Shown: positions 36,488 to 56,954 of the stretch, piece by piece
Layout: every line of letters begins with the position of its first letter
How positions within the stretch are numbered: the stretch's first letter is position 1
Source of the DNA: Gemmobacter fulvus
GTDB lineage: Bacteria > Pseudomonadota > Alphaproteobacteria > Rhodobacterales > Rhodobacteraceae
Reading direction: 5' to 3'
Assembly (NCBI RefSeq): GCF_018798885.1
Contig: NZ_CP076362.1
Coordinates: 248,001-312,000 of the forward strand
DNA: 64,000 nt
Notes under the pieces: generated by a model
What the model was told of the DNA's origin: nothing
The model's input: the letters and a program-made list of their open reading frames with translations, nothing else
The model's database searches: none
Made by a program: the position numbers and the translations under genes

Positions 36488-36530
36488 TGACCCGCAGCCT
36501 TTACCCTTCCACGACCGCAGGAGCCCGTAC

Positions 36531-37973: not shown

Positions 37974-37984
37974 GGGGGACCGGA

Positions 37985-38788
37985 ATGGGCCAGCAACTGC
38001 ATTTCGACGCGGATCCTCCGTCGCGCAAACCCACACTTTTGCTGGTGCATGGGCTTCTCAGCAGCCGGAACCACTGGTTGCCGAACCTGCCGGCGCTCCG
38101 GCGGGTTTTCCGCACGGTCAGGGTTGATCTGCCGGGGCATGGGCTTTCCCCTGCCCGGCCATCCCCCGATCAACTGCACCCAGATCATCTGGTTCAGGCG
38201 CTGGACAGCATCCGGCAGCGGCTGGGCCTGACCAACTGGGCGCTGTGTGGCCAGAGCTTTGGTGCCGGTCTCACCCTGCGCTATGCCCTGCAATGGCCCG
38301 AACGGGTGCCGTTTCATATCTTTACCAATGCCACCGTCGCCGTGTCGGACATGACCCCCGCGCAGGTGCTGAGCCATTGGACCACGCGCCTGCCAAGGTT
38401 GAAATCGGGCCAGCCCGACGCCTTGCTGCAGGAACCCGTGCATCCCAGCCATGCCCGCTTCTGGCCTGCGGAGCTGCGCGACCGGCTGGCACAAGATGCG
38501 GCGGGCATGGATCCGCTGGCCTATGCCGCGCTGATCGAGCATGGCCTTGCCCATCTGCCATTGGGCCGCACTCTCGCCCACCTGCGCCCGCCAGGCTTGC
38601 TGGTCAACGGGCAGCACGAACGCCGGTTCCAGCCGCTGCGCACCACACTGCCCGCTATGATACCCTGTCTGCATATTGTGGATCTGCCGGGAGGCCATTC
38701 GATCAACATCGACAATGCGGCAGGATTTGATGCCGCCGTTCTGAAGTTCGCGTCTGAACATCTGGGCTTCCCGGACGAAAGCCAGTAG
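37985..38788 (+). CDS. Alpha/beta-fold hydrolase
   Basis: 267-aa soluble hydrolase. The oxyanion stretch LLLVHGLLSSRNHWLPNLPAL, the nucleophile elbow LCGQSFGAGL (Ser), and the terminal histidine in DLPGGHSINIDNAAGFDAAV are all in place; the acid may be in LLVNGQHERRF. GAGGGGGACC lies just before the ATG, 11 bases after the dehydrogenase stop, so it belongs to the same operon. It may cleave an ester or lactone feeding the amine route; substrate unknown. Confidence 0.85.
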   Translation: MGQQLHFDADPPSRKPTLLLVHGLLSSRNHWLPNLPALRRVFRTVRVDLPGHGLSPARPSPDQLHPDHLVQALDSIRQRLGLTNWALCGQSFGAGLTLRYALQWPERVPFHIFTNATVAVSDMTPAQVLSHWTTRLPRLKSGQPDALLQEPVHPSHARFWPAELRDRLAQDAAGMDPLAYAALIEHGLAHLPLGRTLAHLRPPGLLVNGQHERRFQPLRTTLPAMIPCLHIVDLPGGHSINIDNAAGFDAAVLKFASEHLGFPDESQ

Positions 38789-38795
38789 GTTACCG

Positions 38796-38815
38796 TTACA
38801 ACGATCTGGTTGTGA
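38796..38815 (+). promoter_or_regulatory. Candidate operator of the MarR regulator
   Basis: TTACAAC and GTTGTGA form a near-perfect inverted repeat (one mismatch) with a 6-base spacer, 33 bases before the MarR start. Size and place suit an autoregulatory MarR dimer site. A related dyad occurs at 41700-41731. Confidence 0.45.
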
Positions 38816-38848
38816 TCTTTAACGTTCTGATATTCAGGTGTAGGACAG

Positions 38849-39394
38849 ATGGACAAGGCAACACGGCTTGACGGCATCGGCGACAAGAACGGCGACATCC
38901 GCCACCTGTTTACCTATAATCTGCAACGGCTTGCCGGTGTGTCCAGCCGCATCGCCATGCTGACAATCCGGCCTGAATTCCAGATCAACACCCTGGATTG
39001 GCGGGCGATGGCCGTGCTGGACTTTCTGGGCGTGGCCACCTTGCAGGTGCTGGCCCGGCGCGCGGGCGTGCAGAAAAGCCAGATGAGCCGCACGGTCGCG
39101 GCGCTGGAGGCGAATGGCATGATCCAGCGTGAAGACAACCCCCGCGACAAGCGCAGCGTTCACCTGAGGCTGACGCCCAAGGGCAAGGATCTTGTGCAGG
39201 CCATTCTGGAAGCCTCGCGCGAACGGAACCGCGCGATGCTGAGCCAGCTTTCCGACGCGGAAAGGTTGCAACTGATGGCGCTGCTGGACAAAGTCACCAT
39301 CGGATCGCTGAACTATCTGAAACAGTTGAAAGGCCATGAGGAGGGCGACGAACCACCCTCCCCCGAAACCGCCTTTGAAACAGAAGTGTTTTAG
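38849..39394 (+). CDS. MarR-family transcriptional regulator
   Basis: 181-aa regulator. Core: LDWRAMAVLDFLGVATLQVLARRAGVQKSQMSRTVAALEANGMIQREDNPRDKRSVHLRLTPKGKDLVQAIL, a complete winged helix with the conserved wing Asp-x-Arg (about residues 90-105). N-terminal 30 residues and the acidic tail EEGDEPPSPETAFETEVF are variable. It is separated by 60 bases, containing an inverted repeat, from the hydrolase gene, so it may have its own promoter. It may govern the amine operon to the left and/or the long operon to the right. Confidence 0.9.
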   Translation: MDKATRLDGIGDKNGDIRHLFTYNLQRLAGVSSRIAMLTIRPEFQINTLDWRAMAVLDFLGVATLQVLARRAGVQKSQMSRTVAALEANGMIQREDNPRDKRSVHLRLTPKGKDLVQAILEASRERNRAMLSQLSDAERLQLMALLDKVTIGSLNYLKQLKGHEEGDEPPSPETAFETEVF

Positions 39395-39457: not shown

Positions 39458-40411
39458 CTAGCGCGGCAGAGCTGCGACGATCGCCCGATATTCCCGGGCA
39501 ATCTCGAACACGATGTCGGCGGCGGGCTGGATCCGCTGCACCAGACCGGCAGACTGCCCGGCCTCAAGCTTGCCGCGCTGAACATCGCCATCCAGCGCCG
39601 CCATCTTCAGGGTCGATGCGGTGAACAGGCTGCGGCGGTCATCTTCGGGCGCATTGGCGGTTTCCAGTGCAGTCATGCGTTCGGTGAACTCATTGGCAAT
39701 GGCGCGGATGAGGCCCAGCCCGCGCCCGACAGTGCGGGTATCGGCGATCCCCGCCGCGACAACCGCCTGTTTATACCCCTGTGCCAGCCCGGCTTCGGGC
39801 GTCGCCATGAAGCGGGTGCCGAAATTCGCCGCCCCTGCCCCCAGCGCCAGCGCCGCCGCCAGCCCGGCCCCATCGGCGAACCCGCCCGAGGCGATGACCG
39901 GCAGACGCCCGTCCATCGCCCGGACCACCGCCCGCGTCAGAACCAGAGTCGAGACCAATGCCTCGGGCGGATGGCCCCCGGCCTCGCCCCCCACGACGAT
40001 CAGCCCGTCAACGCCCTTGTTCGCCGCACTCAGCGCATGGGCTTCGCTTGCGACGACATGCAGGCAGATTGTGCCGAGCGCCTTGAAGCGTTTCAGATAC
40101 TTGTCCGGCCCGCCTTGCGAGGCGATCAGGATCGGCACCCGCTTTTGCTCCAGCAGGTCGAGGATCTCTTCAGAGCCCTTGCGATACAGCGGCATGTTGA
40201 CGGCAAACGGCTTGTCGCTGCCCGCACGCAGGGTATCTATGGCCTCGGCCAGGGCTGCGGGATACATCGGCCCCGCGGCAATCACGCCCAGACCCCCGGC
40301 CCGGCTGACCGCCAGCGGCAGCGCCGCATTCGACGAGGCCCAGGACATCCCCGCCTGCAGGATCGGCAGGTCGATCCCCAGAAGCCGCGTGACAGAGGTT
40401 TCAATCCGCAT
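39458..40411 (-). CDS. Nitronate monooxygenase-family flavoprotein
   Basis: 317-aa FMN TIM-barrel enzyme. N-terminus TRLLGIDLPILQAGMSWASSNAALPLAVSRAGGLGVIAAG, phosphate-binding VVGGEAGGHP and VIASGGFADGAGLAAALALGAGAANFGTRFMAT. The start at 40411 is family-typical; the frame extends 20 codons upstream. Different from the copy at 2606-3634 (low identity). In clusters with CoA enzymes such proteins can act as 2-enoyl-CoA or nitronate oxidoreductases, but no substrate is readable. A terminator-like hairpin separates it from the gene upstream on the same strand, so it is transcribed separately. Confidence 0.82.
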   Translation of the reverse strand: MRIETSVTRLLGIDLPILQAGMSWASSNAALPLAVSRAGGLGVIAAGPMYPAALAEAIDTLRAGSDKPFAVNMPLYRKGSEEILDLLEQKRVPILIASQGGPDKYLKRFKALGTICLHVVASEAHALSAANKGVDGLIVVGGEAGGHPPEALVSTLVLTRAVVRAMDGRLPVIASGGFADGAGLAAALALGAGAANFGTRFMATPEAGLAQGYKQAVVAAGIADTRTVGRGLGLIRAIANEFTERMTALETANAPEDDRRSLFTASTLKMAALDGDVQRGKLEAGQSAGLVQRIQPAADIVFEIAREYRAIVAALPR

Positions 40412-40435
40412 TCCGTAATTCCTTGATCTTGCCGA

Positions 40436-40465
40436 CAGTAAAACGCGGCCCGCATTGGGGCCGCG
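40436..40465 (-). terminator. Terminator after the substrate-binding protein gene
   Basis: On the minus strand CGCGGCCC pairs with GGGCCGCG (40444-40451 and 40458-40465, 6-base loop) and is followed by TTTTAC. It lies 12 bases past the stop of the binding-protein gene and ends the long operon that starts at 50857. Confidence 0.72.
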
Positions 40466-40477
40466 CTTCAAGAGCGT

Positions 40478-41524
40478 TCAGTTCGAGACGCCGGACCAGG
40501 TGTTGAACCGGACGGTCAGGTCTTCCAGATTGTCCTGCCAGAATTCGCGCGCCGCCTCTGATCCAAGAAACAGCGCGGTGTCCAGATTGTCGCCTGCGGG
40601 CAACATCGGCACCCGTGCGGCATCCACCAGATCCATCGCAGCAGGCACCGTCGGCCCATAGGCGAAGCGGTTCGAAAAATCGGCCTGGCGCTGCGCATCC
40701 GACGCATAGGCGATCAGCTCATGCGCCAGATCGGGATAGGGCGTGCCGGCCGGAATGACCCAGGCATCGGCATCATAGAGGGTGTTTTCCCACAGGATCC
40801 CCAGCGGACGCCCTTCGTCCAGCGCGGCAGAGATGCGACCGTTATAGGCCAGCGCCATGGTGACATCGCCCGAAACCAGCCACTCGGCCGGCTGCGCGCC
40901 CGAGTTCCACCACTGAATGCTGCTCTTGATCGTGTCGAGCTTGGCAAAGGCGCGGTCCACCCCCTCTGGCGTCGCCAGCACCGTATAGACATCCGCAGGG
41001 GCAACCCCATCGGCCATCAGCGCGAATTCAAGATTGATCTTGGGGCCACGGCGCATGCCGCGCTTGCCCGGCCAGGTCTGCAGGTCGAAGAAATTCGCCA
41101 CGGTGGTCGGCGCCGTCCCGATGGTGCTTTCGTTGAAGGCCATCACCACAGACCAGATCACGGTGCCGACGCCACATTCGGACACAGCTGCGTCGTAGAA
41201 GCTGTCTTTCGGCCCGATCTTCGTCCAGTCGATGGGCATGAAGATGCCCTCTTCACAGCCGCGCACCAGTTCGGCCGTTTCGACCTGCACCACATCCCAC
41301 GGAATGACGCCGGTATCCTGCATCGCCTTGAAGGGTGCCCAGCCGCCATCATAGACATCATCCAGAACCCGGATGCCCTTTTCGGTGCCAAAAGGCGTGA
41401 ACATGATGTCGCGCTTTGCATCCTGCACCGCGCCGCCCCATGCGGTGACGGTCAGATCCCGGCTCTGCGCCGCCACGGGTGAGGCCAGCAATGTGGCAAG
41501 CCCAATTGCAAGAAGTTTCCTCAT
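40478..41524 (-). CDS. Polyamine-type ABC transporter substrate-binding protein (PotD-like)
   Basis: 348-aa periplasmic binding protein with signal peptide MRKLLAIGLATLLASPVAAQS. The fold begins RDLTVTAWGGAVQDAKRDIMFTPFGTEKGIRVLDDVYDGG, matching the PotD/PotF branch that binds polyamines, opines, quaternary or sulfonium compounds. It is the last gene of the importer, separated from the permease by 214 bases containing an 8-bp dyad, a layout that often raises the level of the binding protein. The ligand cannot be read; a DMSP-like or polyamine-like cation is possible. Confidence 0.87.
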   Translation of the reverse strand: MRKLLAIGLATLLASPVAAQSRDLTVTAWGGAVQDAKRDIMFTPFGTEKGIRVLDDVYDGGWAPFKAMQDTGVIPWDVVQVETAELVRGCEEGIFMPIDWTKIGPKDSFYDAAVSECGVGTVIWSVVMAFNESTIGTAPTTVANFFDLQTWPGKRGMRRGPKINLEFALMADGVAPADVYTVLATPEGVDRAFAKLDTIKSSIQWWNSGAQPAEWLVSGDVTMALAYNGRISAALDEGRPLGILWENTLYDADAWVIPAGTPYPDLAHELIAYASDAQRQADFSNRFAYGPTVPAAMDLVDAARVPMLPAGDNLDTALFLGSEAAREFWQDNLEDLTVRFNTWSGVSN

Positions 41525-41699
41525 GATATTTCCCTGTTGTTGGTGATTATCCGATTGTTGGTGCTGGCCTGACAGCGCGCAGCCGACACAGAAAAATCGT
41601 TGTCCTTCTGTGGCATCGCCCGGATCGCTGCGGTTTCAGAGGCGCTTGCCACAAGATCCCGCAGTGATTCCCAGCCTGTTCAGGTTACGTTTAATTAGG

Positions 41700-41731
41700 T
41701 GATGTTGTAAACTATATTGTAGTCAACATCA
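41700..41731 (-). repeat. 8-bp inverted repeat between permease and binding-protein genes
   Basis: TGATGTTG (41700-41707) and CAACATCA (41724-41731) are exact complements with a 16-base spacer. The pair starts 8 bases past the permease stop. It could be an intercistronic stem-loop or an operator; the core TTACAAC on the minus strand is shared with the site before the MarR gene. Confidence 0.55.
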
Positions 41732-41738
41732 TCAAATA

Positions 41739-42539
41739 TCATCGCAGGATCTGGTTGCGCGCGGCCCGGCTTCGCAGCACCTCATAGGCGGCCAGCAGAC
41801 CGACCGTGAACACGATCACCAAGGTCGAAATCGCGATGATCGAGGGGTCAAGCTGCTCGCGCAGGCCCGAGAAAAGCTGCCGTGGCAGGGTGAACTGCGC
41901 GGGCGAGGCAATGAACAGCGCGATGATGACCTCATCAAACGAGGTCATGAAGGCAAACAGCGCGCCCGAGATCACCCCCGGTGCCACCAGCGGCAGAATG
42001 ACCGACAGGAACGTGGTCACAGGCCGCGCGCCGAGGCTGGAGGACGCCAGCACCAGCCGCCTGTCAAACCCGCGCAAAGCGGCGCTGACGGTAATCACCA
42101 CATAGGGCGCACCGATGGCGGCATGTGCCAGGATCATCCCGGTGAATGTGCCGCTCAGCCCCATGCGCGCGAACATGAAATAGATGCCAAGCGCCACAAT
42201 CACCATCGGCACGATCAGCGGCGAGATCAGGATGCCAATGATGATGCCCCGGCCCGGAAAATTGGCGATGGTCAGCCCGTAGGCCGCCAGCGTGCCCAGC
42301 GTGGTCGCAATCGCCGTTGCGCCCAAAGCAATGATCAGGCTGTTCTTGACCGCTGCAAGCCAGGGCGTCGGCTGCAACACCGTCTCGTACCAGCGCAGCG
42401 ACAGGCCCGGCAGCGGATAGCTGAGAAAGCTGCCGGAACTGAACGACAAGGGCATGATGATCGCAATCGGAACGACCAGAAACAGGCAGACCAGAAGGGT
42501 GAAGACGGTCAGCACAATCGGGTTTTTCGGGGGGTTCAT
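41739..42539 (-). CDS. Polyamine-type ABC transporter permease (PotC-like)
   Basis: 266-aa inner-membrane permease with six segments. Seen: IIALGATAIATTLGTLAAYGL, the EAA-type loop ASSSLGARPVTTFLSVILPLVAPGVISGALFAFMTSFDEVIIALFI, which contacts the ATPase. It partners the PotB-like permease immediately upstream (9-base gap) and the PotA-like ATPase. Start ATG follows GAGGTCG. Part of the long minus-strand operon. Confidence 0.9.
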   Translation of the reverse strand: MNPPKNPIVLTVFTLLVCLFLVVPIAIIMPLSFSSGSFLSYPLPGLSLRWYETVLQPTPWLAAVKNSLIIALGATAIATTLGTLAAYGLTIANFPGRGIIIGILISPLIVPMVIVALGIYFMFARMGLSGTFTGMILAHAAIGAPYVVITVSAALRGFDRRLVLASSSLGARPVTTFLSVILPLVAPGVISGALFAFMTSFDEVIIALFIASPAQFTLPRQLFSGLREQLDPSIIAISTLVIVFTVGLLAAYEVLRSRAARNQILR

Positions 42540-42548
42540 ATCGACCTC

Positions 42549-43766
42549 TCAGACGGTGAAGCCGCGGGCGCCGAACGCCTTGCGGAACACGACATAGACG
42601 ACAATGGTGGTCAGCAGCAGCAGACCCGCCGCAGCGCTGGCCATGCCCCAATTGCCGAGATTCAGCGCAAATTGTGTGATCAGATAGCTCAGCATCTGGT
42701 CTTGCGCGCCCCCGACCAGCGCGGGGGTGATGTAGTAGCCAAGCGCAAGAATGAAGACCAGCAGCGCCCCCGCACTGACACCGGGCAGCGATTGCGGCAG
42801 ATAGACCGTTCGGAAGGCCGCAAATGGCCGCGCCCCCAGCGACATAGCCGCCATCACATGCGCCGCCGGAATGGTGCGCATCGCGTTGTAGGTCGGCAGC
42901 ACCACGAAGGGCAGCAGCACATGCACCATCGCGATATAGACGCCCAGCCTGTTGAAGATCAGCTCCAGTGGCGCGTCAATCAGACCTGCCTTCAGCAAGA
43001 AGCTGTTCACCATGCCCTCGCGCTGCAACAGCGTCATCCATGCCGCCGTCCGCACCAGAACCGAGATCCAGAACGGCAACAGCACGCAGGCCAGCACGAT
43101 CCGCGCGGTGACTGGCCGGGCATGGGCCGCGAAATAGGCAACCGGATAGCCGATCACGATGCAGAGCAAGGTCACCGACAGGCTGATGACCAGCGTGCGT
43201 TTCAGGTAATCCAGATACAGCGCCTGATCGGGAGGAACCGCAGCGATCACGCCGCCCTGATCGCGCCGCAGGTCCAGCACCGCCAGCAGATACCGCGCGG
43301 TGTAAGGGGTGGCGGTGGCTTGCAGATGCACCCAACGCTCGGTCTCGGCCCAAGCCGGGTCCAGATCGGTCAGCGCTTGCAGATAGGGCGGCTGCATCTC
43401 GCCCGCCTCGCGCGCCGCGCGCATCATCACGCTGCGCATGCCGGGCTGTTCCTCGTTGATGCGGGTGGCGGCGGCGGCAATGGTCTTTGCAGCATAGGCC
43501 CCGGCGATTTCCGGAACCATGATGGCGGCCATGTCCTCGGTCGGGGGGCTGGTGCCGTCCCAGTTCAGCAGCATGGCAGAGGTCTGCGGCAAGGCGTTGC
43601 TGACATCCGGGCTGGCGATGGATTTGGTCAGCGTCGTGGCGATGGGGGCGACAAAGACCACGCCGAGAAATGCCAGCAGCGGCAGCACCATCAGAAAGGC
43701 GGTCAACTGCCGCCCACGTTCGGCCCGCCGCATTGCGCGGCGCAGGTCAGGCTGCGGTGCGCTCAT
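42549..43766 (-). CDS. Polyamine-type ABC transporter permease (PotB-like, with long insert)
   Basis: 405-aa permease; longer than usual (about 290-310) because a hydrophilic insert of about 100 residues (roughly 45-170, from SPDVSNALPQTSAM) lies between membrane segments 1 and 2, on the periplasmic side. This insert is known in a subgroup of opine/polyamine permeases. The EAA loop is AMSLGARPFAAFRTVYLPQSLPGVSAGALLVFILALGYYITPALVGG. The start overlaps the ATPase stop (ATGA). Confidence 0.88.
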   Translation of the reverse strand: MSAPQPDLRRAMRRAERGRQLTAFLMVLPLLAFLGVVFVAPIATTLTKSIASPDVSNALPQTSAMLLNWDGTSPPTEDMAAIMVPEIAGAYAAKTIAAAATRINEEQPGMRSVMMRAAREAGEMQPPYLQALTDLDPAWAETERWVHLQATATPYTARYLLAVLDLRRDQGGVIAAVPPDQALYLDYLKRTLVISLSVTLLCIVIGYPVAYFAAHARPVTARIVLACVLLPFWISVLVRTAAWMTLLQREGMVNSFLLKAGLIDAPLELIFNRLGVYIAMVHVLLPFVVLPTYNAMRTIPAAHVMAAMSLGARPFAAFRTVYLPQSLPGVSAGALLVFILALGYYITPALVGGAQDQMLSYLITQFALNLGNWGMASAAAGLLLLTTIVVYVVFRKAFGARGFTV

Positions 43767-44878
43767 TTCCCCTCCTCCCGGTCCAGAACCCGGGCGCGTT
43801 CGCGCGGCCAGCTCAGGTCGATGGCGGTGCCGGGTTCAAAGCGGTCGGTGCGTTCCAGACTGCTGCGGGCGGTGATGCCCTTGCAGCCCGCGACCTCGAC
43901 CTCATACCGCAGATGGTCGCCATGATAGATCAGCGTGCGCACCACGCCGCGCACCGCGCCGAGGCCGCCCTGACCATCGGCAGCCAGCGCAAGACGCTCG
44001 GGGCGAACCGCCAGATTGACGGTCTGGCAGATCACCGCATTCAGCACGTTCAGGCCCTGAACCTCGGTCCCGCAGGACAGGCGGACCCGGGCGAAAGCGC
44101 CCTCCACCGCTGTAACCTTGCCGTGGAAGTTGTTGATCTCGCCAATAAAGTTGCCAACGAAGGAACAGTTCGGCTCTTCATAGATCTCCTGCGGTGTGCC
44201 GATTTGCAGGATGGTGCCGCGGTTGAATACGGCGATGCGGTTCGACATGGTCAGCGCCTCGGACTGATCATGGGTCACATAGACGACCGTCATGCCCAGT
44301 TCTTCGTGCAGGCGCTTGATCTCGATCTGCATATGCTCGCGCAGCTGTTTGTCCAGCGCGCCCAGCGGTTCGTCCATCAGAACCACATCGGGTTCGCTGA
44401 CCAGCGCGCGCGCCAGTGCGATCCGCTGCTGCTGACCGCCCGAAAGCTGGGTCGGCAGGCGGCTGGCGAATTTTCCCATATGAACCTTTTCCAGCGCCGT
44501 TTCGACCCGGCGATCAATATCGCCCTTCGGGATGCGGCGCTGTTTCAGCGGATAGGCGATGTTTTGCGCCACCGTCATATGCGGAAACAGCGCATAGCTT
44601 TGAAACACCACGCCCATGTTGCGCTTGTAGGCCGGGGTGCGGTCCAGCCGCTTGCCCGCAAGGTGGATTTCGCCGCCGGTCGGGTTTTCAAACCCGGCCA
44701 GCATCATCAGCAGCGTCGTCTTGCCCGACCCCGAGGGGCCCAGCAGCGTCACGAATTCGCCGCGCTGAATGGACAGTGACAGGCCGTCGACGACATTGCT
44801 CGCGCCGTCATAGGTCTTTGAAATATCTCGGAATTCGACAAAGGGGGCAGACAGGGTCTGCGTCTGTTGGGCTACCAT
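43763..44878 (-). CDS. Polyamine-type ABC transporter ATP-binding protein (PotA-like)
   Basis: 371-aa ATPase with TOBE domain. Walker A GPSGSGKTTLLMML, Q-loop VFQSYALFPHMTV, signature LSGGQQQRIALARAL, Walker B VVLMDEPLGALD, switch VTHDQSEALTM, then a C-terminal TOBE region (GEINNFHGKVTAVEGAFARVRLSCG...NLAVRPERLAL). ATG at 44878 follows GAGGAC. First transporter gene, 51 bases after the cupin gene of the same operon; overlaps the next gene by ATGA. Probably serves uptake of the compound degraded by the upstream enzymes. Confidence 0.92.
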   Translation of the reverse strand: MVAQQTQTLSAPFVEFRDISKTYDGASNVVDGLSLSIQRGEFVTLLGPSGSGKTTLLMMLAGFENPTGGEIHLAGKRLDRTPAYKRNMGVVFQSYALFPHMTVAQNIAYPLKQRRIPKGDIDRRVETALEKVHMGKFASRLPTQLSGGQQQRIALARALVSEPDVVLMDEPLGALDKQLREHMQIEIKRLHEELGMTVVYVTHDQSEALTMSNRIAVFNRGTILQIGTPQEIYEEPNCSFVGNFIGEINNFHGKVTAVEGAFARVRLSCGTEVQGLNVLNAVICQTVNLAVRPERLALAADGQGGLGAVRGVVRTLIYHGDHLRYEVEVAGCKGITARSSLERTDRFEPGTAIDLSWPRERARVLDREEGK

Positions 44879-44929
44879 GATGTCCTCGGCATGTTGGGAG
44901 ACGCGCCGTTGGGCCGGCGCTGATGTCAT

Positions 44930-45613
44930 TCAGGGCTTGGGTTCGCTAAAGCGCGACGGCGCGCGGATATCGCCGCGCCACATCGACAAGGCTAAGAGGG
45001 TCTCATCCCCGGTCCGCATGGCATGGGGCTGCATTTCATGGTGCAGAAGGAAGGCTCCGGGCGGGCGTGGGGCAAAGGGCGTGTCGTCCACCGCCCAATC
45101 CGCCGTGCCCGCGAGCACCAGATACAGCTCGCGCGCCGGGTGTTCATGCAGCGGATACAGCGTCTGTGGCCCGACGATCACCAACCCCAGCGTGACCTGA
45201 TCCGACGCTTGCACCCCGTCCGGGCCGACCAGATCACAAAAGCCGAAGCGGTCATACAGCCGGGCGTCGCTGTTGCGGTATTTGTTGCGCCACCACAGCC
45301 CCCCGGCCAGCGCCGCCACCGTGCTTGCCAGATGCTGCAACGGCCCCGGTGCCACGGTTTGCAGGGCTGGGTGCAGGAACCGCACCGCAGGCAGTTCGTG
45401 CGCCTGCGGATTGCAGATGGGTGCGGTGACACCGGCCAGCAGCCGCGCCATTTCCGCGCATTCTGCCGCGACCTCGGGCGGGCTGTTGCGCGCGGCGTCA
45501 GAGGTCAGCAGGACCCGCGTCGCGTCGCAAAAAGCCGCCACATCGGCAGGCCAATCGCCCTGCGTCACCAACCCTGCGGCGCCACCCGCGCCTTGCGCCG
45601 GATCCCGGGTCAT
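44930..45613 (-). CDS. DMSP-lyase-family cupin (DddL/DddQ-like)
   Basis: 227-aa cupin. The C-terminal half carries the family pattern LGLVIVGPQTLYPLHEHPARELYLVLAGTADWAVDD with H156, H158, E162 and Y164, and H197 in PHAMRTGDETLLALSMWRGD, the residues that bind metal and start beta-elimination in DddQ/DddL. These enzymes cleave dimethylsulfoniopropionate to dimethyl sulfide and acrylate. The N-terminal 100 residues are helical, as in DddQ. Neighbours are a CoA ligase, CoA-transferase and hydratases, which could handle acrylate, but several family members are not DMSP lyases, so the substrate is open. It overlaps the ligase gene (ATGA). Confidence 0.75.
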   Translation of the reverse strand: MTRDPAQGAGGAAGLVTQGDWPADVAAFCDATRVLLTSDAARNSPPEVAAECAEMARLLAGVTAPICNPQAHELPAVRFLHPALQTVAPGPLQHLASTVAALAGGLWWRNKYRNSDARLYDRFGFCDLVGPDGVQASDQVTLGLVIVGPQTLYPLHEHPARELYLVLAGTADWAVDDTPFAPRPPGAFLLHHEMQPHAMRTGDETLLALSMWRGDIRAPSRFSEPKP

Positions 45614-47232
45614 TGCACCGTCTCCGCTGTGTGCAGCAGTGCGATGGCATGTTCTGCCAGCCGGGTCTTTTGCACCTTGGCGCTGGCGGTCATGCCGATG
45701 TCGTCAAAACTGTCGACGATCCACAGGTGGCGCGGTACCTTGAAACCCGCCATTTCTTCCTTGCTCCAGGCCAACAGGGTGGCGGGATCGGTGGTTGTCT
45801 GCGCGTTCAGAACGACGAAGGCAGCGCAGACCTCGACCAGCCGCGCGTCGGGGACGCCCACGACCTGCGCCTGCTTGACCGCCGGGTGGCGGTGCAGGAT
45901 GTTCTCGACCTCTTCGGGCGAGACGTTCTCGCCACCGACACGGACGATGTTTTTCAACCGGCCCACAAACTCCAGCCGGCCCTCACCGTCCATCCGGCCC
46001 AGATCGCCGGTCAGCAGCCAGCCGTCTGCGGTCAGCGTCTCGGCGGTGCGCTCGGGCATCTCGAAATAGCCCGGCATCACCGACCAGCCCCGCACGCGGA
46101 TCTCGCCAACTTCGCCCGTGGGCAGCACCGCCCCGCAGGCCGGATCGGTGACGACCACCTCAAGCCCCGGCTGTGGCGACATCAGCCCTTTGAAACGCTG
46201 CTCCATCGGCTCCCACCAGGCCGATTGCGCGACATTGGGCGAGGCTTCGGACAGACCATACCCCGACACAACTTCGGTCGCGCCCAGTTCCAGCGCCACG
46301 CGGCGCAGAGCGGTTTCGGCCCCCGCCACCCAGGCCCCGCGCAGGCACAGCTTGCGCGCGGGCCGGTCGGGATGGTTCAGCAGCATCAGCGCCATGGTGT
46401 CATTGCCCGAAAAATGCGTGCAACGCTCCGCTTCCATCAGGCGCAGGGCCTCGGCGGGTTCAAACCGCCGCATGGTGACCAGCGTGGTCAGGTTCTGCAA
46501 ACAGGACAGGATCGACAGCGTGGTGCCCGCAACGTGAAAGAACGGCCGCGCCGAATGGAAACGGTCGCCACAGCGCAGCCCCATCCGCTGACCCGACACG
46601 AAGCCGTTCGCCAGCATCGCGCCCTGCCGCAGCATCACCCCCTTGGGAAAGGCCGTGGTGCCCGAGGTATACTGGATCAGCATCATATCATCGGCGCAGG
46701 CCAGAGCGCCCGGATCGGCCCCCGCCCCGGCCATGAAATCATCCCAGGATCCGCAGGTCGCCGGCACTGTGTCGCCGTCAACCACGACCGTGTGCAGATC
46801 GGGCAAGGCGGCGTCCGGCAGGCCATGATCCAGCCCCGGCGCAATCCGCCGCAGCAAGGCGATGAAATCCGACGACAGCAGCCGGTCGGCGGTGAACAAC
46901 CGCGTCACCCGCGACTGGCGCAGGGCATAGGCAATCTCCTCGGATTTGAGCCGGGTGTTCACCGGAACCGACACCGCGCCCAGCGTGCCAAGTGCCAGAA
47001 ACAGCGTCAGGAACCGGGTGCCATTGCCCAGACAGATGCCGACATGGTCGCCACGCCTGACCCCCGCCACCGCCAGTGCGGCACGCACCCGCGCCACTTC
47101 GGCATCAAGCTCTGCAAAGGTCAGGCGGCCATCGGGAGCGACAATCGCCTCGACCGTGGGGGCCAGGCTGCGCGCGCGGCGCAGGGCCTCGGCCACTGTC
47201 ACCGGGCAGAGGGTTGCGGGATCAAAGTTCAT
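45610..47232 (-). CDS. AMP-dependent acyl-CoA synthetase (FadD/MenE-like)
   Basis: 540-aa adenylate-forming enzyme: acid + ATP + CoA to acyl-CoA. Seen in order: MLIQYTSGTTAFPKGVMLRQGA (ATP loop), VSGYGLSEASPNVAQ, LLTGDLGRMDGEGRLEFVGRLKNIVRVGGENVSPEEVENILHRHP (hinge and core motif), and a C-terminal lysine in TASAKVQKTRL. The start at 47232 overlaps the hydratase stop as ATGA; 50 upstream codons have no similarity. Chain length preference cannot be read. It probably activates an acid made in this operon. Confidence 0.9.
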   Translation of the reverse strand: MNFDPATLCPVTVAEALRRARSLAPTVEAIVAPDGRLTFAELDAEVARVRAALAVAGVRRGDHVGICLGNGTRFLTLFLALGTLGAVSVPVNTRLKSEEIAYALRQSRVTRLFTADRLLSSDFIALLRRIAPGLDHGLPDAALPDLHTVVVDGDTVPATCGSWDDFMAGAGADPGALACADDMMLIQYTSGTTAFPKGVMLRQGAMLANGFVSGQRMGLRCGDRFHSARPFFHVAGTTLSILSCLQNLTTLVTMRRFEPAEALRLMEAERCTHFSGNDTMALMLLNHPDRPARKLCLRGAWVAGAETALRRVALELGATEVVSGYGLSEASPNVAQSAWWEPMEQRFKGLMSPQPGLEVVVTDPACGAVLPTGEVGEIRVRGWSVMPGYFEMPERTAETLTADGWLLTGDLGRMDGEGRLEFVGRLKNIVRVGGENVSPEEVENILHRHPAVKQAQVVGVPDARLVEVCAAFVVLNAQTTTDPATLLAWSKEEMAGFKVPRHLWIVDSFDDIGMTASAKVQKTRLAEHAIALLHTAETVQ

Positions 47233-48005
47233 GCCCCTGCCTCCTTCTTGCCCGACCCGACGATCCCGGAAAAGCGGGCGACGCCGCCGCGCCAATCGCT
47301 TTGTTGCAGGTTGCGTTCGATGGCCGACATCTCGATGGCGATGCCGCTTGCCAGATCGGTGCGGCTGCCCTGATCCACGCAATGTTTGGTCAGGCGCATT
47401 GCCAGCGCGGGCGCTGCCAGAATACGGTCAACCACCGCCTCGACTTCACTGGCCAGCGACGCGGAGGGGACCAGCCGCGCGACGAGGCCAAGCGCCAGCG
47501 CCTCATCCGCCGCCATGACGCGGCCCGTATACAAAAGTTCCTTGGCACGACCGACGCCGATGGCCCGTTGCAGCCGCTGCGTCGCGCCGACCGTGCCCCA
47601 TTGGGGTTCAGGAAACCGGAAGCTTGCCGCATCGGAGGCGATAATGAAATCACAGCTCATCGCGATTTCCCCGCCTGATCCCACCAAAGCACCCTGCACG
47701 ACGCAGACCACAGGCACGGCACAAGCCGCAATGCAATCATAGGCCCGGAACGAGGCACGGCGACGGGCCATCACCCAGGCTTCATCCCGGCCCTCGCGTT
47801 CCTTCATGTCGGCCCCGGCGCAGAACACCGGCCCCTCGGCCGACAGCACGACAATGGCGATCTCGGGCGTGCGCGCGATGGTGTCAAAGGCGGTGATCAG
47901 CTCTTTGCACATCTGCAAATTCAGCGCGTTCCGGGCTGCGGGCCGCGACAGGATCACATCGGCGCGCCGGTCGGACAGGCGCAGGGTCACAAGGGGGTGG
48001 CTCAC
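47229..48005 (-). CDS. Enoyl-CoA hydratase/isomerase-family protein
   Basis: 258-aa crotonase. Seen: RPAARNALNLQMCKELITAFD, oxyanion loop FCAGADMKEREGRD, and the second loop GALVGSGGEIAMSCDFIIASDAASFRFPEPQWGTVGATQRLQRAIG. One of the two usual catalytic glutamates is present (G-S-G-G-E), so hydration or isomerisation is plausible. It overlaps both neighbours by ATGA. With the second hydratase at 49189-49917 it may handle a different step on the same CoA thioester. Confidence 0.87.
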   Translation of the reverse strand: MSHPLVTLRLSDRRADVILSRPAARNALNLQMCKELITAFDTIARTPEIAIVVLSAEGPVFCAGADMKEREGRDEAWVMARRRASFRAYDCIAACAVPVVCVVQGALVGSGGEIAMSCDFIIASDAASFRFPEPQWGTVGATQRLQRAIGVGRAKELLYTGRVMAADEALALGLVARLVPSASLASEVEAVVDRILAAPALAMRLTKHCVDQGSRTDLASGIAIEMSAIERNLQQSDWRGGVARFSGIVGSGKKEAGA

Positions 48006-49192
48006 GCTACGGCTCCTTTGCGGAAAAGTGCGTCGATTTCATCTTCGGTCAGGTCCAGCTCCTTCGACAGGATCTGGCGCGAATGTTCGCCCAGCTGTGG
48101 CGGGGGGGAAAACCGCGCCGCGTCCCAGCCAGACAGAAGCGCCGGATTGCGCAGACCGGGCGTCGCGCCCCGGCCCGGCACATCGAAATGGTCAATCATC
48201 TCGCGCGCCTGCGTATGCGGATCGTTCAGGATTTCGGGCACGGTGTTCACCTCGCCCGCCGGGACACCACGCGCGCGCAGGGCCTCGGCCAGTTCTGCGC
48301 GGTCGCGTGCGGCAATAGCCTCCCGCAGCGCGGCCTCCACCGCATCACGGCGACGGACGCGGTGACGGTTCCGGGCCAGTTCGGCATCGGCCAGCAGGGC
48401 ATCCAGGCCCAGTTCGGCACAAAGCGGTTCCCAATGCTGGTCCGAGGCGCTGATGAACAGCCAGCCGCCATCGCGGCAGGCATAGGCGGCGCTTGGCACC
48501 CGGCCCAGATGCCCGGTGCCGGTGCGGGTCGGCGTCTCGCCCAAGGCAAAATACCGCGCGGCAGGCAGCCCCAGCAGACTGACCTGCACATCCATCATCG
48601 ACAGATCGACATGGGTTCCCCGCCCCGACTGCGCCCGCCCCATCAGCCCGGTCAGCACCGAAATCGCAATCCACAGCCCCGAGGTCAGATCGGCAAAGGG
48701 CAACCCCACCTTGGCAGGCGGGCCGTCCGGCTGGCCCGTCAGGTCAATCGCCCCCGACAGCGCCTGAAAGATCGTGTCATAGCCCTTGCGGTTGCGGTAA
48801 GGCCCGCTCTGCCCGAACCCGGTGTTCGAGACATAGACCAACCCCGGATTGACCGCCGACAGCGCGGCGTAATCCAGACCGTATTTCGCCATTTCACCGG
48901 GCAGGAAATTTTCGACCACCACATCGGTTCCGGCGGCCAGATCGAAAGCCAGCTTGCGGCCCTCGGGCGATTTCAGATCCAGCGCGATGGACCGTTTGCC
49001 GCGATTGAAGGCGCTGTAATAGGCGCTGGGGCCATCCTGAAAATGCGGCTCGAAGGTGCGGCTTTCGTCGCCGGTGCCGGGACGTTCGACCTTGGTCACC
49101 TCGGCGCCATAGTCGGCGAGGATCTGCGTGGCCATCGGCCCCGCCAGCACGCGCGAGAAATCCAGCACGCGGATGCCATCAAGCGGCCTCAT
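48002..49192 (-). CDS. CaiB/BaiF-type (class III) CoA-transferase
   Basis: 396-aa family III CoA-transferase. N-terminus MRPLDGIRVLDFSRVLAGPMATQILADYGAEVTKVERPGTGDESR is classical; the catalytic aspartate lies in THVDLSMMDVQVSLL (about residue 200). These enzymes move CoA between acids (carnitine, oxalate, succinate and others); DddD, a DMSP enzyme, carries two such domains, but here there is one. It overlaps neighbouring genes on both sides by ATGA. Confidence 0.92.
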   Translation of the reverse strand: MRPLDGIRVLDFSRVLAGPMATQILADYGAEVTKVERPGTGDESRTFEPHFQDGPSAYYSAFNRGKRSIALDLKSPEGRKLAFDLAAGTDVVVENFLPGEMAKYGLDYAALSAVNPGLVYVSNTGFGQSGPYRNRKGYDTIFQALSGAIDLTGQPDGPPAKVGLPFADLTSGLWIAISVLTGLMGRAQSGRGTHVDLSMMDVQVSLLGLPAARYFALGETPTRTGTGHLGRVPSAAYACRDGGWLFISASDQHWEPLCAELGLDALLADAELARNRHRVRRRDAVEAALREAIAARDRAELAEALRARGVPAGEVNTVPEILNDPHTQAREMIDHFDVPGRGATPGLRNPALLSGWDAARFSPPPQLGEHSRQILSKELDLTEDEIDALFRKGAVA

Positions 49193-49917
49193 GGCTTCGG
49201 CTCCCGGAACGAGCGCATCATGGCGTTCACGTCGCGCCCGACCTGCATCGCCGCCTCGGTCGGCAGGTCTGACACGCGATAAAATAGCTGCTTGGCGGCC
49301 CGCATGGCGCGCGGTTCGGCGGCGGCCCAGGCCTCGGCGATGGTGAGGGCCTCGGCCAGCGGGTCGTCTGCGATGCGGTTGGCCAGCCCCAGCGCCAGCG
49401 CCTCATCCGCGCCGATCAGGCGGCCAAGGCTGATCATCTCGAACGCCTGTTTACGGCCCAGCCCGCGCACCAGCCCGGTCATCACCAGCGCCGGAACAAT
49501 GGAGTGCTTGACCTCGGGGTAGCCGAATTTCAGGTCACGACCCACCACCGTCATGTCACAGCCGATCGCCAACCCCGCGCCACCGCCCACCGCCGGGCCC
49601 TGCGCCGCCGCAACAACCGGCTTGGAAATCTGGCTCATCACCATCTGCACCCGGCAGGTCAGATCGGCGCGTTTGATGACCGCATCGGATTGGTCGGGCG
49701 TCAGATGCCGGAACTCTGCCAGATCCGCCCCGGCGCAGAAGGCGCGCCCTGCCCCGGCCAGAACCACCGCGCGAATGTGTGTCGCGGCGTCGGCCTCCAG
49801 CATCGCGTCCAGCACGCCCTGCGTCAGCGCGGTGTTCAGCGCATTCATCTTCTCGGGGCGGTTCAGTGTCAGGATGCGCACCGCGCCACGGTCTTCTTTC
49901 AGGACCAGATTTTCCAC
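49189..49917 (-). CDS. Enoyl-CoA hydratase/isomerase-family protein
   Basis: 242-aa crotonase. Seen: RPEKMNALNTALTQGVLDAM, oxyanion loop FCAGADLAEFRHLT and GPAVGGGAGLAIGCDMTVVGRDLKFGYPEVKHSIVPALVM. In the second loop the first glutamate is replaced (GGGAGLA), so this copy may be an isomerase or hydrolase rather than a hydratase. GTG at 49917 follows GGAGAC and sits next to the stop of the lyase gene; the longer frame from 49947 is less likely. Confidence 0.85.
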   Translation of the reverse strand: MENLVLKEDRGAVRILTLNRPEKMNALNTALTQGVLDAMLEADAATHIRAVVLAGAGRAFCAGADLAEFRHLTPDQSDAVIKRADLTCRVQMVMSQISKPVVAAAQGPAVGGGAGLAIGCDMTVVGRDLKFGYPEVKHSIVPALVMTGLVRGLGRKQAFEMISLGRLIGADEALALGLANRIADDPLAEALTIAEAWAAAEPRAMRAAKQLFYRVSDLPTEAAMQVGRDVNAMMRSFREPKP

Positions 49918-49918
49918 G

Positions 49919-50857
49919 TCAGACTGTCTCCGCTTGCATGGGTGCAAAGGCCCCGGCCCGCGCCACCCGGCTGTTCAGGTTTCTGCCAAGCGCCGCCTCG
50001 CAGGCGGCTGACGCTTGCATCATCAGATCAAGGTCGATTCCGTGGTTCAGATTTTCACGATCCAGCAGCGCGACCAAATCCTCGGTTGCAACATTGCCAG
50101 TTTCGCCCTGCCCGTAGGAAATCTGCCGGGGATGGCCACCGACCCCCCCCATGGCGCTGTCGAAATCGACGCAGTCGGCCTCAAGCGCGGCCATGCAATT
50201 GGCGATACCTGCGCCACGGGTGTCGTGGAAATGTGCCACCGGCACGATGCCCGGCACCTCTGCGGCCAACCGCCGGAACAGATGCCGCACCCGCGCGGGC
50301 GAAGCGCTGCCAACCGTGTCGCCCACCGCCAGCAGCGCCGCGCCCAGGTCGGCGAAACGCGCCGCATCCTCGATGACACGGCCGGGGTCAACCTCGCCTT
50401 CGAACGGGCAGCCAAGCGCCATCGAGATCACGCCGACCAGCCGGACCCTGCCGCGCGCCAGAGCCGCCATCTGTTCGACCCGTTGCCATTGTTCGGCCCG
50501 CGTGGTCCGAAGGTTGCGCGCCGTATGGCTTTCGGTGGCCGAGACCAGCAGGCTCAGTTCATTCGCGCCATGCCCCGCCGCCTGATCGGCCAGCGCCCGA
50601 TCCACCGCACGCTGATTGGGACAGGTGGCCTTGTACCAGACGCCAGCCCGACGCGGCATCTGCCGCAGCAGATCGCTCGCATCGGCAAAGGCCGGAACCT
50701 GACCGGGGTGGCTATAGCTGGTCGCTTCGATGCGGGGGAATCCTGCGGCGGCGAACAGGCCGATCAGCCGGGCCTTGGTGCCGGTATCCGGCACCTGATC
50801 CTCGTGCTGCAACCCGTCCCGCGCAAAGCATTCGCAGATGGTGAGTCTTGCGCTCAT
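49919..50857 (-). CDS. HMG-CoA lyase-like DRE-TIM metallolyase with altered active-site loop
   Basis: 312-aa aldolase-type barrel. Metal site intact: CECFARDGLQHED (Asp), and HFHDTRGAG (two His). ATG at 50857 has GGAGGGA ahead and is the first gene of the long operon. The loop that carries the catalytic cysteine in HMG-CoA lyases (GGCPYA-x-GASGN) reads GGHPRQISYGQGETGNVATEDL here, with His for Cys and extra residues. So it likely acts on a different 3-hydroxy-acid CoA ester or condenses rather than cleaves. It works with the hydratases and CoA-transferase encoded next. Confidence 0.82.
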   Translation of the reverse strand: MSARLTICECFARDGLQHEDQVPDTGTKARLIGLFAAAGFPRIEATSYSHPGQVPAFADASDLLRQMPRRAGVWYKATCPNQRAVDRALADQAAGHGANELSLLVSATESHTARNLRTTRAEQWQRVEQMAALARGRVRLVGVISMALGCPFEGEVDPGRVIEDAARFADLGAALLAVGDTVGSASPARVRHLFRRLAAEVPGIVPVAHFHDTRGAGIANCMAALEADCVDFDSAMGGVGGHPRQISYGQGETGNVATEDLVALLDRENLNHGIDLDLMMQASAACEAALGRNLNSRVARAGAFAPMQAETV

Positions 50858-51017
50858 CTGATCTCCCTCCATATAGTTAATTCTTGCAACAATATTGATG
50901 CTTGAGTCAACCTAAATTTGACGAGGAGGCGATATCTGTTCTGCACCTCTGCCCACCAGACTAGACCAGGCCCGGCTTCAGGTGGTGGCGGTGATGTGCC
51001 GGATATTGCGATCTGCA

Positions 51018-51126: not shown

Positions 51127-52812
51127 CTATCTGTCCAGCCGCCGCAGCGGCGCAGCGCTGCGCTGGCTGACGCCGGTGCCCGGCGCGATGCCGACGGCGG
51201 CATTCGAGGGCGCCAGCAGCGGGCGGCCCCGGATCATGTCGGCGCCGCGTTCGGCCAGCATGATGGTGGGGGCATTGAGGTTGGCATTGGGTTCGGTCGG
51301 AAACACCGAACTGTCGATCACCCGCAGGCCGTCAAGCCCACGCACGCGCAATTCACTGTCCACCACCGCCAGCGCATCTTCGCCCATCCGGCAGGTGCCG
51401 CAGGGGTGATAGGTGCTTTCCATGGTCTGCCGCACGAAAGCGTCGATCTCTTCATCGCTCTGCACCTCGGGGCCGGGGGCGATTTCTGTCGCGCGATACC
51501 GGTCCATCGCGGGCTGGGCGATGATTTCACGGGTCAGGCGCAGGCAGCGGCGAAAGCCCTCGCGGTCTTCCTCGCGGTCAAGGTAGTTGAACAGGATATC
51601 GGGATGGTCATTCGGATCCCCGCTGCGCAGCCGGACATGGCCGCGGCTCTTGGGTTTGTTCGGTCCGGTCAGCACCATGAAACCATGGCCTTTCAGCGGC
51701 TTCTTGCCATCATAGCGCATGGCGGCGGGCAGGAAGTGGAACTGGATGTCGGGCCAGGCCAGCGCCGCGTCAGAGCGGATGAAGCCACCCGCCTCGAAAT
51801 GGTTGCTCACCCCCAGCCCCCGTTTGAACAGCAGCCATTCGACCCCGATCAGGAATTTGCTGAACAGGCCCATCTTGCCGTTCAGGGTGATCGGCTCCTT
51901 GCAGGCATATTGGATATAGACCTCGGAATGGTCTTGCAGGTTTTCACCCACGCCGGGCAGATCATGCAGCACCGCGACACCCGCCTGTTGCAGCACCGCC
52001 CCCGGCCCGATGCCAGAGCGTTGCAGCAGATGCGGCGAGCCGATGGGGCCGGCCGACACAATGACCTCGCGGTTGCAATGGGCGATCTGGCGCGTGCCGT
52101 CAGCCTCATATTCCACCCCGATGGCGCGTTTTCCCTCCAGCAGGATACGGCGGGTCATGGCGTGGGTGATGACCGTGAGGTTCGGGCGGTGCATCGCCGG
52201 GCGCAGATAGGCATTGGCGGTGGACCAGCGCACCCCGTCCTTCACCGTCATGTGCATCGCGCCGAAGCCTTCCTGCATATGGCCGTTGGGATCGTCGGTC
52301 TTGATGTAACCGGCCTGATGCCCGGCCTCGACGAAAGCGCCGTAGAGCGGGTTCTTCATCCTGTTGCCCGCATTGGTGGCCAGCGGTCCGTCAGCGCCGC
52401 GATAGCTGTCGCCGCCCTCGGCCCAGGTTTCGGCGCGCTGGAAATAGGGCAGGCAATGAGCATAGCCCCAGCCCCGCGCACCCTGCTCCTCCCATTCGTC
52501 GAAATCATGGGCGTGGCCGCGCATATAGACCAGACCGTTGATCGAGGACGACCCACCCAGCACCTTGCCGCGCGGACAATGGATGCGGCGGCCATCAAGG
52601 CCCGGTTCGGGCAGGGTTTCATATTTCCAGTTGTATTTCGTGCCATTCATCGGGATCGACAGCGCCGTGGGCATCTGGATGAAGATGCTGCGGTCACTGC
52701 CGCCGAATTCCAGCACCAGCACCGACACCATCGGGTCTTCGCTGAGCCGGTTCGCCAGAACACAGCCAGCCGAGCCCGCGCCAATGATGATGTAATCGAA
52801 CGTGTCCGGCAT
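51127..52812 (-). CDS. Choline dehydrogenase-like GMC oxidoreductase (BetA/DddA type)
   Basis: 561-aa FAD enzyme. ADP-binding motif [23 protein letters not shown] at the start, GMC signature 1 [27 protein letters not shown], signature 2 [18 protein letters not shown], catalytic-histidine region [12 protein letters not shown], and C-terminal [17 protein letters not shown]. Family members oxidise choline to betaine (BetA) or 3-hydroxypropionate to the semialdehyde (DddA of the DMSP route). Neighbours do not include betB, so choline is not certain. Last gene of the ureohydrolase-NCS1 operon. Confidence 0.92.
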
Positions 52813-52845
52813 GGGCGTGCTCCTGATCTGTCATGGGGTAGAGGG

Positions 52846-52869
52846 GGGGAAGGCACGCGGGCCTTCCCC
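52846..52869 (-). repeat. Intercistronic hairpin
   Basis: GGGGAAGGC (52846-52854) pairs with GCCTTCCCC (52861-52869), 6-base loop, between the permease stop and the dehydrogenase start. No T-run follows, so it more likely stabilises mRNA ends than ends transcription. Confidence 0.5.
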
Positions 52870-52881
52870 GGTAGCGGTGCG

Positions 52882-54306: not shown

Positions 54307-54307
54307 C

Positions 54308-54478: not shown

Positions 54479-54556
54479 CTTTATCCTCCCTTTGCGCCAC
54501 GTTTTCCGCGGTCGGCCTTGATTGCAGCGGCGGCAGGCCATGCAGGCCTGCCGGGG

Positions 54557-56951: not shown

Positions 56952-56954
56952 GGC

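Follow-up and report, generated by a model that had tools for sequence, protein, structure and literature searches.

What does a bacterium gain from a gene run in which a cupin of the dimethylsulfoniopropionate (DMSP) lyase family stands among coenzyme A (CoA) enzymes and the genes of an ATP-binding cassette (ABC) importer? The question arises from a stretch of 64,000 nucleotides of Gemmobacter fulvus (contig NZ_CP076362.1, positions 248,001 to 312,000; hereafter the window), which sits in a 4.68 Mb genome and for which a first-pass annotation had proposed an undescribed CoA-based catabolic system with its own importer. A literature search, covering part of the literature, found no description of this gene set and so agrees with that proposal. 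We give a slightly better than even chance to an undescribed pathway in which an amine would be converted through a semialdehyde, a dicarboxylate, and a CoA ester into acetyl-CoA and an oxo acid, behind an uptake and release module that could be exchanged. Such a system would be a testable catabolic chassis with exchangeable uptake and release heads, present in marine, rhizosphere, and soil bacteria.

Gene layout and the shared CoA core

All ten genes of the annotated run were recovered as minus-strand open frames in the order given for them, and Pfam scores far above chance supported every family. The reported overlaps were also recovered: five of the nine junctions overlap by 4 bases (four ATGA and one GTGA), and the remaining four measure +1, 0, +9, and +214, the last of these lying ahead of the binding-protein gene, whose coupling to the run is accordingly looser. 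The lyase has two candidate ATG starts, at 50872 (the longer frame, listed below) and at 50857, and is termed HMGL-H here for the His that it carries where hydroxymethylglutaryl-CoA (HMG-CoA) lyase has Cys. The terminator that was said to close the run stood in part, since a hairpin with a 13-pair stem lies 3′ of the binding-protein gene (the fold of 40425-40485 gives −25.8 kcal/mol, z −2.67), whereas a consensus terminator scan did not report a hairpin at 40439..40470. The run does not end there, however. The FabK-like gene beyond it, together with the plus-strand transaminase, aldehyde dehydrogenase (ALDH), and MarR genes (35120-39394), belongs with the core unit, so that the earlier gene list was incomplete and had overlooked a transaminase and a dehydrogenase that travel with the importers. 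The features are as follows, G082 being one of the records compared below:

49919..50872, minus strand, HMGL-type DRE-TIM lyase (HMGL-H; Pfam HMGL-like, 115.9 bits)
49189..49917, minus strand, crotonase 1, enoyl-CoA hydratase/isomerase (ECH_1, 146 bits)
48002..49192, minus strand, family III CoA-transferase (CoA_transf_3, 414.7 bits)
47229..48005, minus strand, crotonase 2 (ECH_1, 157.2 bits)
45610..47232, minus strand, AMP-forming acyl-CoA ligase (AMP-binding, 225.2 bits)
44930..45613, minus strand, DMSP-lyase-family cupin, accessory module (PF16867, 94.3 bits, cut-off 27)
43763..44929, minus strand, PotA-type ATPase of importer type G (ABC_tran, 134.6 bits, and TOBE_2; 61% identical to G082)
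42549..43766, minus strand, PotB-type permease of 405 amino acids (BPD_transp_1, 46.8 bits; 59% identical to G082)
41739..42539, minus strand, PotC-type permease (BPD_transp_1, 49.4 bits; 66% identical to G082)
40478..41524, minus strand, solute-binding protein, nearest to γ-aminobutyrate (GABA)-binding types (SBP_bac_8, 134.3 bits)
40439..40470, minus strand, hairpin, candidate terminator (13-pair RNA stem)
39458..40411, minus strand, FabK-like protein of FabK/NMO type, sixth core gene (Pfam NMO, 168.9)
38849..39394, plus strand, MarR-type regulator (Pfam MarR; match in 9 of the 14 other records)
37985..38788, plus strand, alpha/beta hydrolase (Abhydrolase_1, 77.7 bits)
36531..37973, plus strand, semialdehyde-type ALDH (best PDB relative an alpha-ketoglutaric semialdehyde dehydrogenase, 560 bits)
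35120..36487, plus strand, class III omega-transaminase (Aminotran_3, 301.5 bits)

The comparison set consisted of 15 records with a lyase orthologue, the window included, from alpha- and betaproteobacterial hosts and Rhodococcus, with pLA6 and G239 entered as one record. A presence matrix was built by tblastn over positions 28001-60000 of the window and over the fetched stretches, and absence below means absence within these stretches; the G121 contig stops just beyond the lyase, and the G1236 contig covers 15.8 kb. Counts were taken by tblastn because the open reading frame (ORF) caller, tuned to high-GC genes, overlooked genes in some loci; several Polaromonas genes are split in the ORF calls, and the Rhodococcus and Polaromonas lyases were read as fragments. 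Genes of the fetched stretches derive from the ORF caller, BLAST, and spot Pfam checks, with roles assigned by family.

The lyase and both crotonases were found in all 15 records, with crotonase 1 being 50-84% and crotonase 2 48-77% identical to those of the window in the 14 others. The CoA-transferase (at least 52% identity), the ligase, and the FabK-like gene each occur in 12 of the 15, window included. CoA-transferase identity to the window amounts to 52-83% in 11 of the 14 other records and 33-37% in three, and the ligase is likewise present in 11, the other three having an NDP-forming-type CoA ligase. In these three (G1236, G217, and G050), an acyl-CoA dehydrogenase, the NDP-forming-type ligase, and an MmgE/PrpD protein replace the ligase and FabK-like gene (assigned by Pfam for G217 and for the dehydrogenase and MmgE/PrpD of G1236, and by identity for the rest). 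Neither MmgE/PrpD nor the acyl-CoA dehydrogenase was found by tblastn in window positions 28001-60000, both being present in three of the 15 records, and the two sets never occur in the same record, a pattern that suggests desaturation by the FabK-like protein. A precedent is IpdC, a FabK relative (30% identical) that is proposed, in the available text of PMC5380842, to introduce a double bond during acyl-CoA breakdown. The FabK-like protein scored 210 bits against its best PDB match, FabK, versus 137 bits against the nitronate monooxygenase (NMO) PA1024, and an identity as a plain NMO was rejected since FabK structures are closer; with the FabK model it reached 247, below the cut-off of 453, and so is not FabK proper.

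A second group of genes comes and goes together. The transaminase and ALDH occur in nine of the 15 records, all nine of which also carry PotABC-type genes, and none of the six records without them has PotABC, the 36% PotA match in pLA6 being an ATPase annotated as SsuB or TauB. Uptake genes among these six are of other kinds, namely TRAP in pLA6, a TctC receptor in Cupriavidus, MFS in Rhodococcus, TctA in G217, and an 89% relative of the latter in G050. On the simple reading, substrates enter the CoA core as the acid, and the importer, transaminase, and ALDH form an amine front end. The transaminase is 54-86% identical to that of the window in eight other records, and the seven plasmid records with a transaminase at 60% or more are all among the ten plasmid carriers of the lyase described below. 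The ALDH falls into one group (55-85% to the window's) in eight of the nine front-end records, window counted, with G082 differing (36%). Among solved structures, the window's ALDH is closest to alpha-ketoglutaric and succinic semialdehyde dehydrogenases, and the motifs VRK(I/V) and xRNAGQVC are found in the same proportion of front-end records (8/9); we take their arginines to be the carboxylate-binding R213 and R334 of human succinic semialdehyde dehydrogenase.

The remaining chassis enzymes resemble known ones at a distance. For the CoA-transferase, the best NCBIfam model is succinate--glutarate CoA-transferase (332 bits, below the cut-off of 750), the nearest solved relative is an unassigned CaiB/BaiF protein, and the named solved relatives include formyl-CoA and succinate--hydroxymethylglutarate CoA-transferases. 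HMGL-H has an HMGL-like domain and resembles human HMG-CoA lyase (2cw6, 171.7 bits), sharing the metal-site motifs RDGLQ and HxH(D/N) and the Asn in all lyases where these are covered. It differs in that GG(V/I/T)GGHP stands in all 15 lyases where the human enzyme has GGCP, so that the Cys, which is catalytic in HMG-CoA lyase, is replaced by His, with a four-residue insert accompanying the change (15/15). A lyase subfamily annotated as HMG-CoA lyase thus is without that enzyme's Cys.

Among plasmid records, the lyase search returned ten at 56-74% identity, with the next at about 40% or less (among the best 40 of 267); eight of the ten were taken into the set, two Shinella near-duplicates being omitted. 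At E ≤ 1e-80, the window's genome was the only carrier among 385 class-sampled genomes and among 11 of its genus, and carriers numbered 2 of 398 genomes of the phylum, 2 of 151 in the family of G943, and 6 of 248 in the window's family, all of which are lower bounds because only 5 to 17 first-look candidates per genome were scored. The lyase is therefore rare among the sampled genomes. The plasmid location of the core mirrors sampling, as 8 of the 14 other records were drawn from a plasmid collection. The catabolic chassis is patchily distributed and has probably spread between lineages.

Exchange of the uptake and release module

The order of all ten genes recurred in none of the 14 other records. 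G121 (L124) has the window's chassis at 77-86% identity, namely transaminase 86%, ALDH 85%, and MarR 84%, and, on the opposite strand, FabK-like 84%, ligase 80%, crotonase 2 77%, CoA-transferase 83%, crotonase 1 84%, and lyase 84%, with a different importer. Its interval between ALDH and MarR holds a different binding protein, PotABC genes (60-66% identity with those of rhizobia), and a histone deacetylase (HDAC)-like gene (Pfam Hist_deacetyl), at which position the window has the alpha/beta hydrolase alone; no cupin was found in the examined G121 stretch. In the window, a 5.2 kb block of cupin, PotA, PotB, PotC, and PotD separates the ligase from the FabK-like gene, two genes that are directly adjacent (about 12 bases or less) in 9 of the 11 further records having both, the exceptions being Cupriavidus and Polaromonas. 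No clear compositional trace of this block was seen, its GC being 0.62-0.68 versus 0.66-0.68 for the core genes. The G121-type importer, here termed S, occurs in seven records, accompanied by an HDAC-like gene in five and by an Amidohydro_3 gene in G943, and importer G occurs in the window and G082. The cupin goes with importer G in two of two cases, with importer S in none of seven, and with none of the six importer-less records. The annotation had made the cupin the key step of a single linear pathway; with 13 of the 15 core stretches lacking one, and with its block lying between core genes that usually abut, this view does not fit. The uptake and release module looks exchangeable and the cupin looks like a swappable front part, not the heart of the pathway.

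The binding proteins suggest what each importer may carry. In a PDB search, the best solved relative of the window's binding protein was the GABA sensor domain Pf622 (188 and 186 bits), followed by 4i1d (148 bits, no ligand named) and the agropine permease protein (142), while E. coli PotD reached 22.8 bits and the NCBIfam models for PotD and PotF gave 27.1 and 21.6 bits (cut-offs 582 and 636). The available part of PMC12999171 gives the GABA site as W9, T13, F100, position 102, W202, R205, D228, and Y264, with D228 bonding the amino group of GABA. The proteins of the window and G082 retain Trp9, Arg205, Asp228, and Tyr264, and, as a difference from Pf622, Thr13, Phe100, Phe102, and Trp202 are substituted in that of the window. 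Across 12 aligned binding proteins, the carboxylate-type Arg205 is conserved in all; Asp228 is present in the five that lie near cupins (window, G082, L002, L035, and L044) and lost in seven, which come from five core clusters that have no cupin. This alignment did not include the S. chiapasense protein, and the G121 protein, by eye, is also without Asp228. According to the accessible text of PMC11113362, similar proteins in P. aeruginosa are binders of GABA and 5-aminovalerate; these (PA4985, PA0602, and AgtB) are known here by description and not by sequence comparison. In a PDB search, the binding protein of one type S importer (RAC02) had 4i1d (246 bits) and MotA, an opine protein (218 bits), as its closest relatives; E. 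coli PotD scored 44. We infer that the substrate of importer G is a zwitterion bearing both a carboxylate and a cationic group, and that importer S transports a carboxylate that has no free cation, for example an N-acyl amino acid, which would fit the amidohydrolase beside importer S. Polyamine uptake by the window's importer appears unlikely.

The cupin, called DddL/DddQ-like in the annotation, is a true PF16867 member by its score, and that assignment held. All six DddQ active-site residues given in the consulted part of PMC4437653 (Tyr120, His123, His125, Glu129, Tyr131, and His163) are conserved in it (YHHEYH); where it has HPARELY, 4la2 has HQAEELY and 5cu1 HPAEEIY. These residues are a family trait rather than a mark of DMSP cleavage because 70 of 77 aligned rows, rhizobial ones included, carry all six, and active-site conservation was therefore rejected as proof of DMSP cleavage. 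In a quick tree with many poorly resolved deep branches and without DddW, DddK, and DddY rows, the window cupin pairs with that of G082 (SH-aLRT 99; 44-54% identical, depending on the method) outside the DddQ, 5cu1, and annotated DddL clades, in a clade containing no characterised row. The DMSP importers DmpXWV and DddT, as described in the available parts of PMC10030565 and PMC8163506, are unlike the window's importer. Cupins of the "DMSP lyase family" should thus not be counted as dimethyl sulfide producers by sequence alone, and the binding protein, cupin, and lyase together offer a concrete system for learning the role of such cupins.

The proposed pathway and its rivals

In the pathway that we favor, the ABC importer would supply a zwitterion that carries a carboxylate as well as a cationic group, from which the cupin, through a metal- and Tyr-assisted beta-elimination like that of DddQ, would free a compound usable by the chassis. 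The class III transaminase would convert a primary omega-amino acid into a semialdehyde, which the semialdehyde-type dehydrogenase would turn into a dicarboxylic acid, and the CoA-transferase or the ligase would activate this acid. The FabK-like protein would make the alpha,beta double bond, taking the place of the acyl-CoA dehydrogenase of three relatives, the crotonases would hydrate the unsaturated CoA ester, and HMGL-H would split the 3-hydroxyacyl-CoA by a retro-aldol reaction into acetyl-CoA and an oxo acid. In the sister clusters (G121 and six), the front would consist of a different importer and, in six of the seven, an HDAC-like or Amidohydro_3 amidohydrolase. We infer the chassis steps from protein families and gene co-occurrence. 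Hydration followed by a lyase split, as the annotation had it, would stand in this scheme, with the reservation that the lyase is without the Cys of HMG-CoA lyase.

Several observations weigh against this pathway. A free ammonium group would require no cupin, and the alpha/beta hydrolase has no place among the proposed steps. Polyamine-labelled proteins are also relatives of the binding protein (4eq7, 144 bits, which we presume to be the GABA protein Atu2422, and 8jv1, 139.5 bits, labelled spermidine/putrescine); the onium import proposed in the annotation is supported insofar as GABA binders are closer to the protein than E. coli PotD is, and weakened by these two. The pairing of cupin with importer type is a matter of two of two versus none of seven, as only two cupin clusters are known, and no amidohydrolase was found near importer S of Polaromonas. 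Further difficulties come from G082: about 12.5 kb separate its binding-protein gene from PotABC (L033 and L075), its cupin has an APH-type kinase on one side and, on the other, another transaminase-type gene of class III, an arrangement that the pathway leaves unexplained, and the semialdehyde role may not hold there because its different ALDH, with phenylacetaldehyde/betaine-aldehyde-type hits, is without the Arg motifs.

A more specific version, in which the DMSP-lyase-fold cupin of this aldolytic CoA pathway with its Cys-less lyase has a function different from DMSP cleavage, cutting a C-N or C-S bond of the zwitterion and thereby unmasking an amine for the transaminase, is doubtful as it stands. 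The zwitterion could be an N-carboxyalkyl, quaternary, or sulfonium omega-amino acid, and the cupin would do the work of the amidohydrolase of the sister clusters. If true, unmasking would help to explain the family cupins in stachydrine- or betaine-type gene groups of soil bacteria, which presumably meet little DMSP. A bolder variant would have the lyase act on 3-hydroxy onium acids such as gonyol, for which the accessible text of PMC7221440 leaves the bacterial breakdown route open and a retro-aldol step would suit; as the hosts of the core live in soil and rhizosphere, gonyol is unlikely as the main substrate. A single linear onium pathway, with the cupin cleaving an imported sulfonium or ammonium acid and the ligase, hydratase, and lyase processing the unsaturated product, would account for the intact cupin active site, the zwitterion-type binding-site residues, the cupin relatives near betaine-type genes, the BetA-type GMC gene adjoining the lyase, and the betaine aldehyde dehydrogenase-type hits of the G082 ALDH. 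We nevertheless regard it as unlikely, as the core occurs in cupin-free stretches, some beside TRAP, TctA/TctC, or MFS genes, and it leaves no role for a transaminase and an ALDH that are 86% and 85% identical to those of a cupin-free chassis. An independent DMSP lyase that reached the operon by chance and feeds nothing into it, as another view of the cupin, agrees with the same cupin-free stretches and with the splitting of two usually abutting core genes; the chance is small, as two divergent clusters, with cupins of 44-54% identity, unite the cupin clade, the importer type, and the core.

The chemistry of the core admits two further routes. A C5-dicarboxylate route of the itaconate or methylsuccinate kind would be a special case of our preferred explanation, with methyl-GABA as the amine, a crotonase hydrating a mesaconyl-type CoA, and HMGL-H acting as a citramalyl-CoA lyase that yields pyruvate and acetyl-CoA. 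Chloroflexus has an R-citramalyl-CoA lyase that belongs to the HMGL family. Of the described systems, the one with the most similar logic is the itaconate/methylsuccinate cluster of Cupriavidus and Pseudomonas, which, in the available part of PMC12290011, shares CoA-transferase, desaturation, hydration, and lyase steps; three core relatives have MmgE/PrpD, acyl-CoA dehydrogenase, and family III CoA-transferase like its methylsuccinate genes, and the window differs from the portion described there in its HMGL-type lyase, crotonases, FabK-like protein, amine front end, and ABC importer. The CoA-transferases of those three records are only 33-37% identical to that of the window. As we also know of no natural conjugate of methyl-GABA, this route seems improbable, though no more so than the linear onium pathway. 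Least probable is a leucine or HMG-CoA-type pathway with an ordinary HMG-CoA lyase, which can call on the PRK05692 hydroxymethylglutaryl-CoA lyase model (246.1 bits at a cut-off of 246) and on the conserved RDGLQ, HxHD, and Asn, against which stand the Cys-to-His change and insert of every lyase in the set and the result that no window gene submitted to Pfam or NCBIfam fell into a carboxylase family.

Other cupin loci and flanking genes

The wider cupin family was surveyed through its gene neighborhoods. Of 394 genomes searched at the family level, 165 carry a cupin; 60 of their loci and L002, the one locus from a search of genome contigs, were examined (n = 61). The lyase lies within 8 kb only at L033, a related binding protein was found at four loci, and an enolase-superfamily gene at 12. 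Loci on the DddQ side adjoin enolase-superfamily (mandelate-racemase-type), Rieske, and DAO-GCV_T genes (Pfam-checked in L113, by eye in L096, L104, and L051), and DMSP as their natural substrate is doubtful given this betaine-type neighborhood. Plasmid-borne "DMSP lyase family" cupins also occur in rhizobia and Burkholderia (L120, L121, L122, and L123). The three rhizobial ones directly follow an NADH:flavin oxidoreductase gene, which we presume to be StcD-like in a neighborhood of stachydrine type, with P5CR-like genes nearby and, in two of the three, a ring-hydroxylating-dioxygenase or SRPBCC gene; the Burkholderia cupin adjoins glycine-betaine ABC genes. An onium or betaine association therefore holds for parts of the cupin family, from which a DMSP role does not follow. 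A paper on a riboflavin pathway (PMC12746152) was set aside as a match, its cupin being in a different context and its text having no word starting with "CoA".

In a second cupin clade, three of four members (L002:2462-10552, L035, and L044) lie near LysR-like and PotDABC-type genes without the CoA core, and the binding proteins of these loci have the same GABA-site residues. Members of another branch (L037:8651-10229 and L040:8538-10165) adjoin a phosphorylase-superfamily (MTAP-like) gene (identified by Pfam in L037) and a gene that, by eye, resembles adenine phosphoribosyltransferase, so that a sulfur-nucleoside link is possible. At L033:8565-11617 of G082, the kinase and the transaminase-type gene both match the kinase/aminotransferase fusion PRK06148, which raises the question of whether they act as a kinase plus phospho-lyase on an amino alcohol.

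Two genes flank the extended unit:

34105..35016, minus strand, LysR-type regulator, divergent from the transaminase (NCBIfam LysR-type models)
51127..52812, minus strand, BetA-type GMC oxidoreductase (betA, 777.5 bits, cut-off 732.1)

The regulator is likely part of the system, a LysR-like gene being seen by eye at the same position in G121, and the GMC gene possibly belongs to it, with GMC relatives at 37-41% in four of the 14 other records. Scanning the window for Rfam families and tRNA genes gave no matches. Immediately upstream of the lyase, a co-directional run at 51127-57926 comprises the BetA-type gene together with agmatinase-like (Arginase family), two SDR, polysaccharide-deacetylase, and NCS1 permease genes, and is a candidate for ureide or guanidine catabolism.

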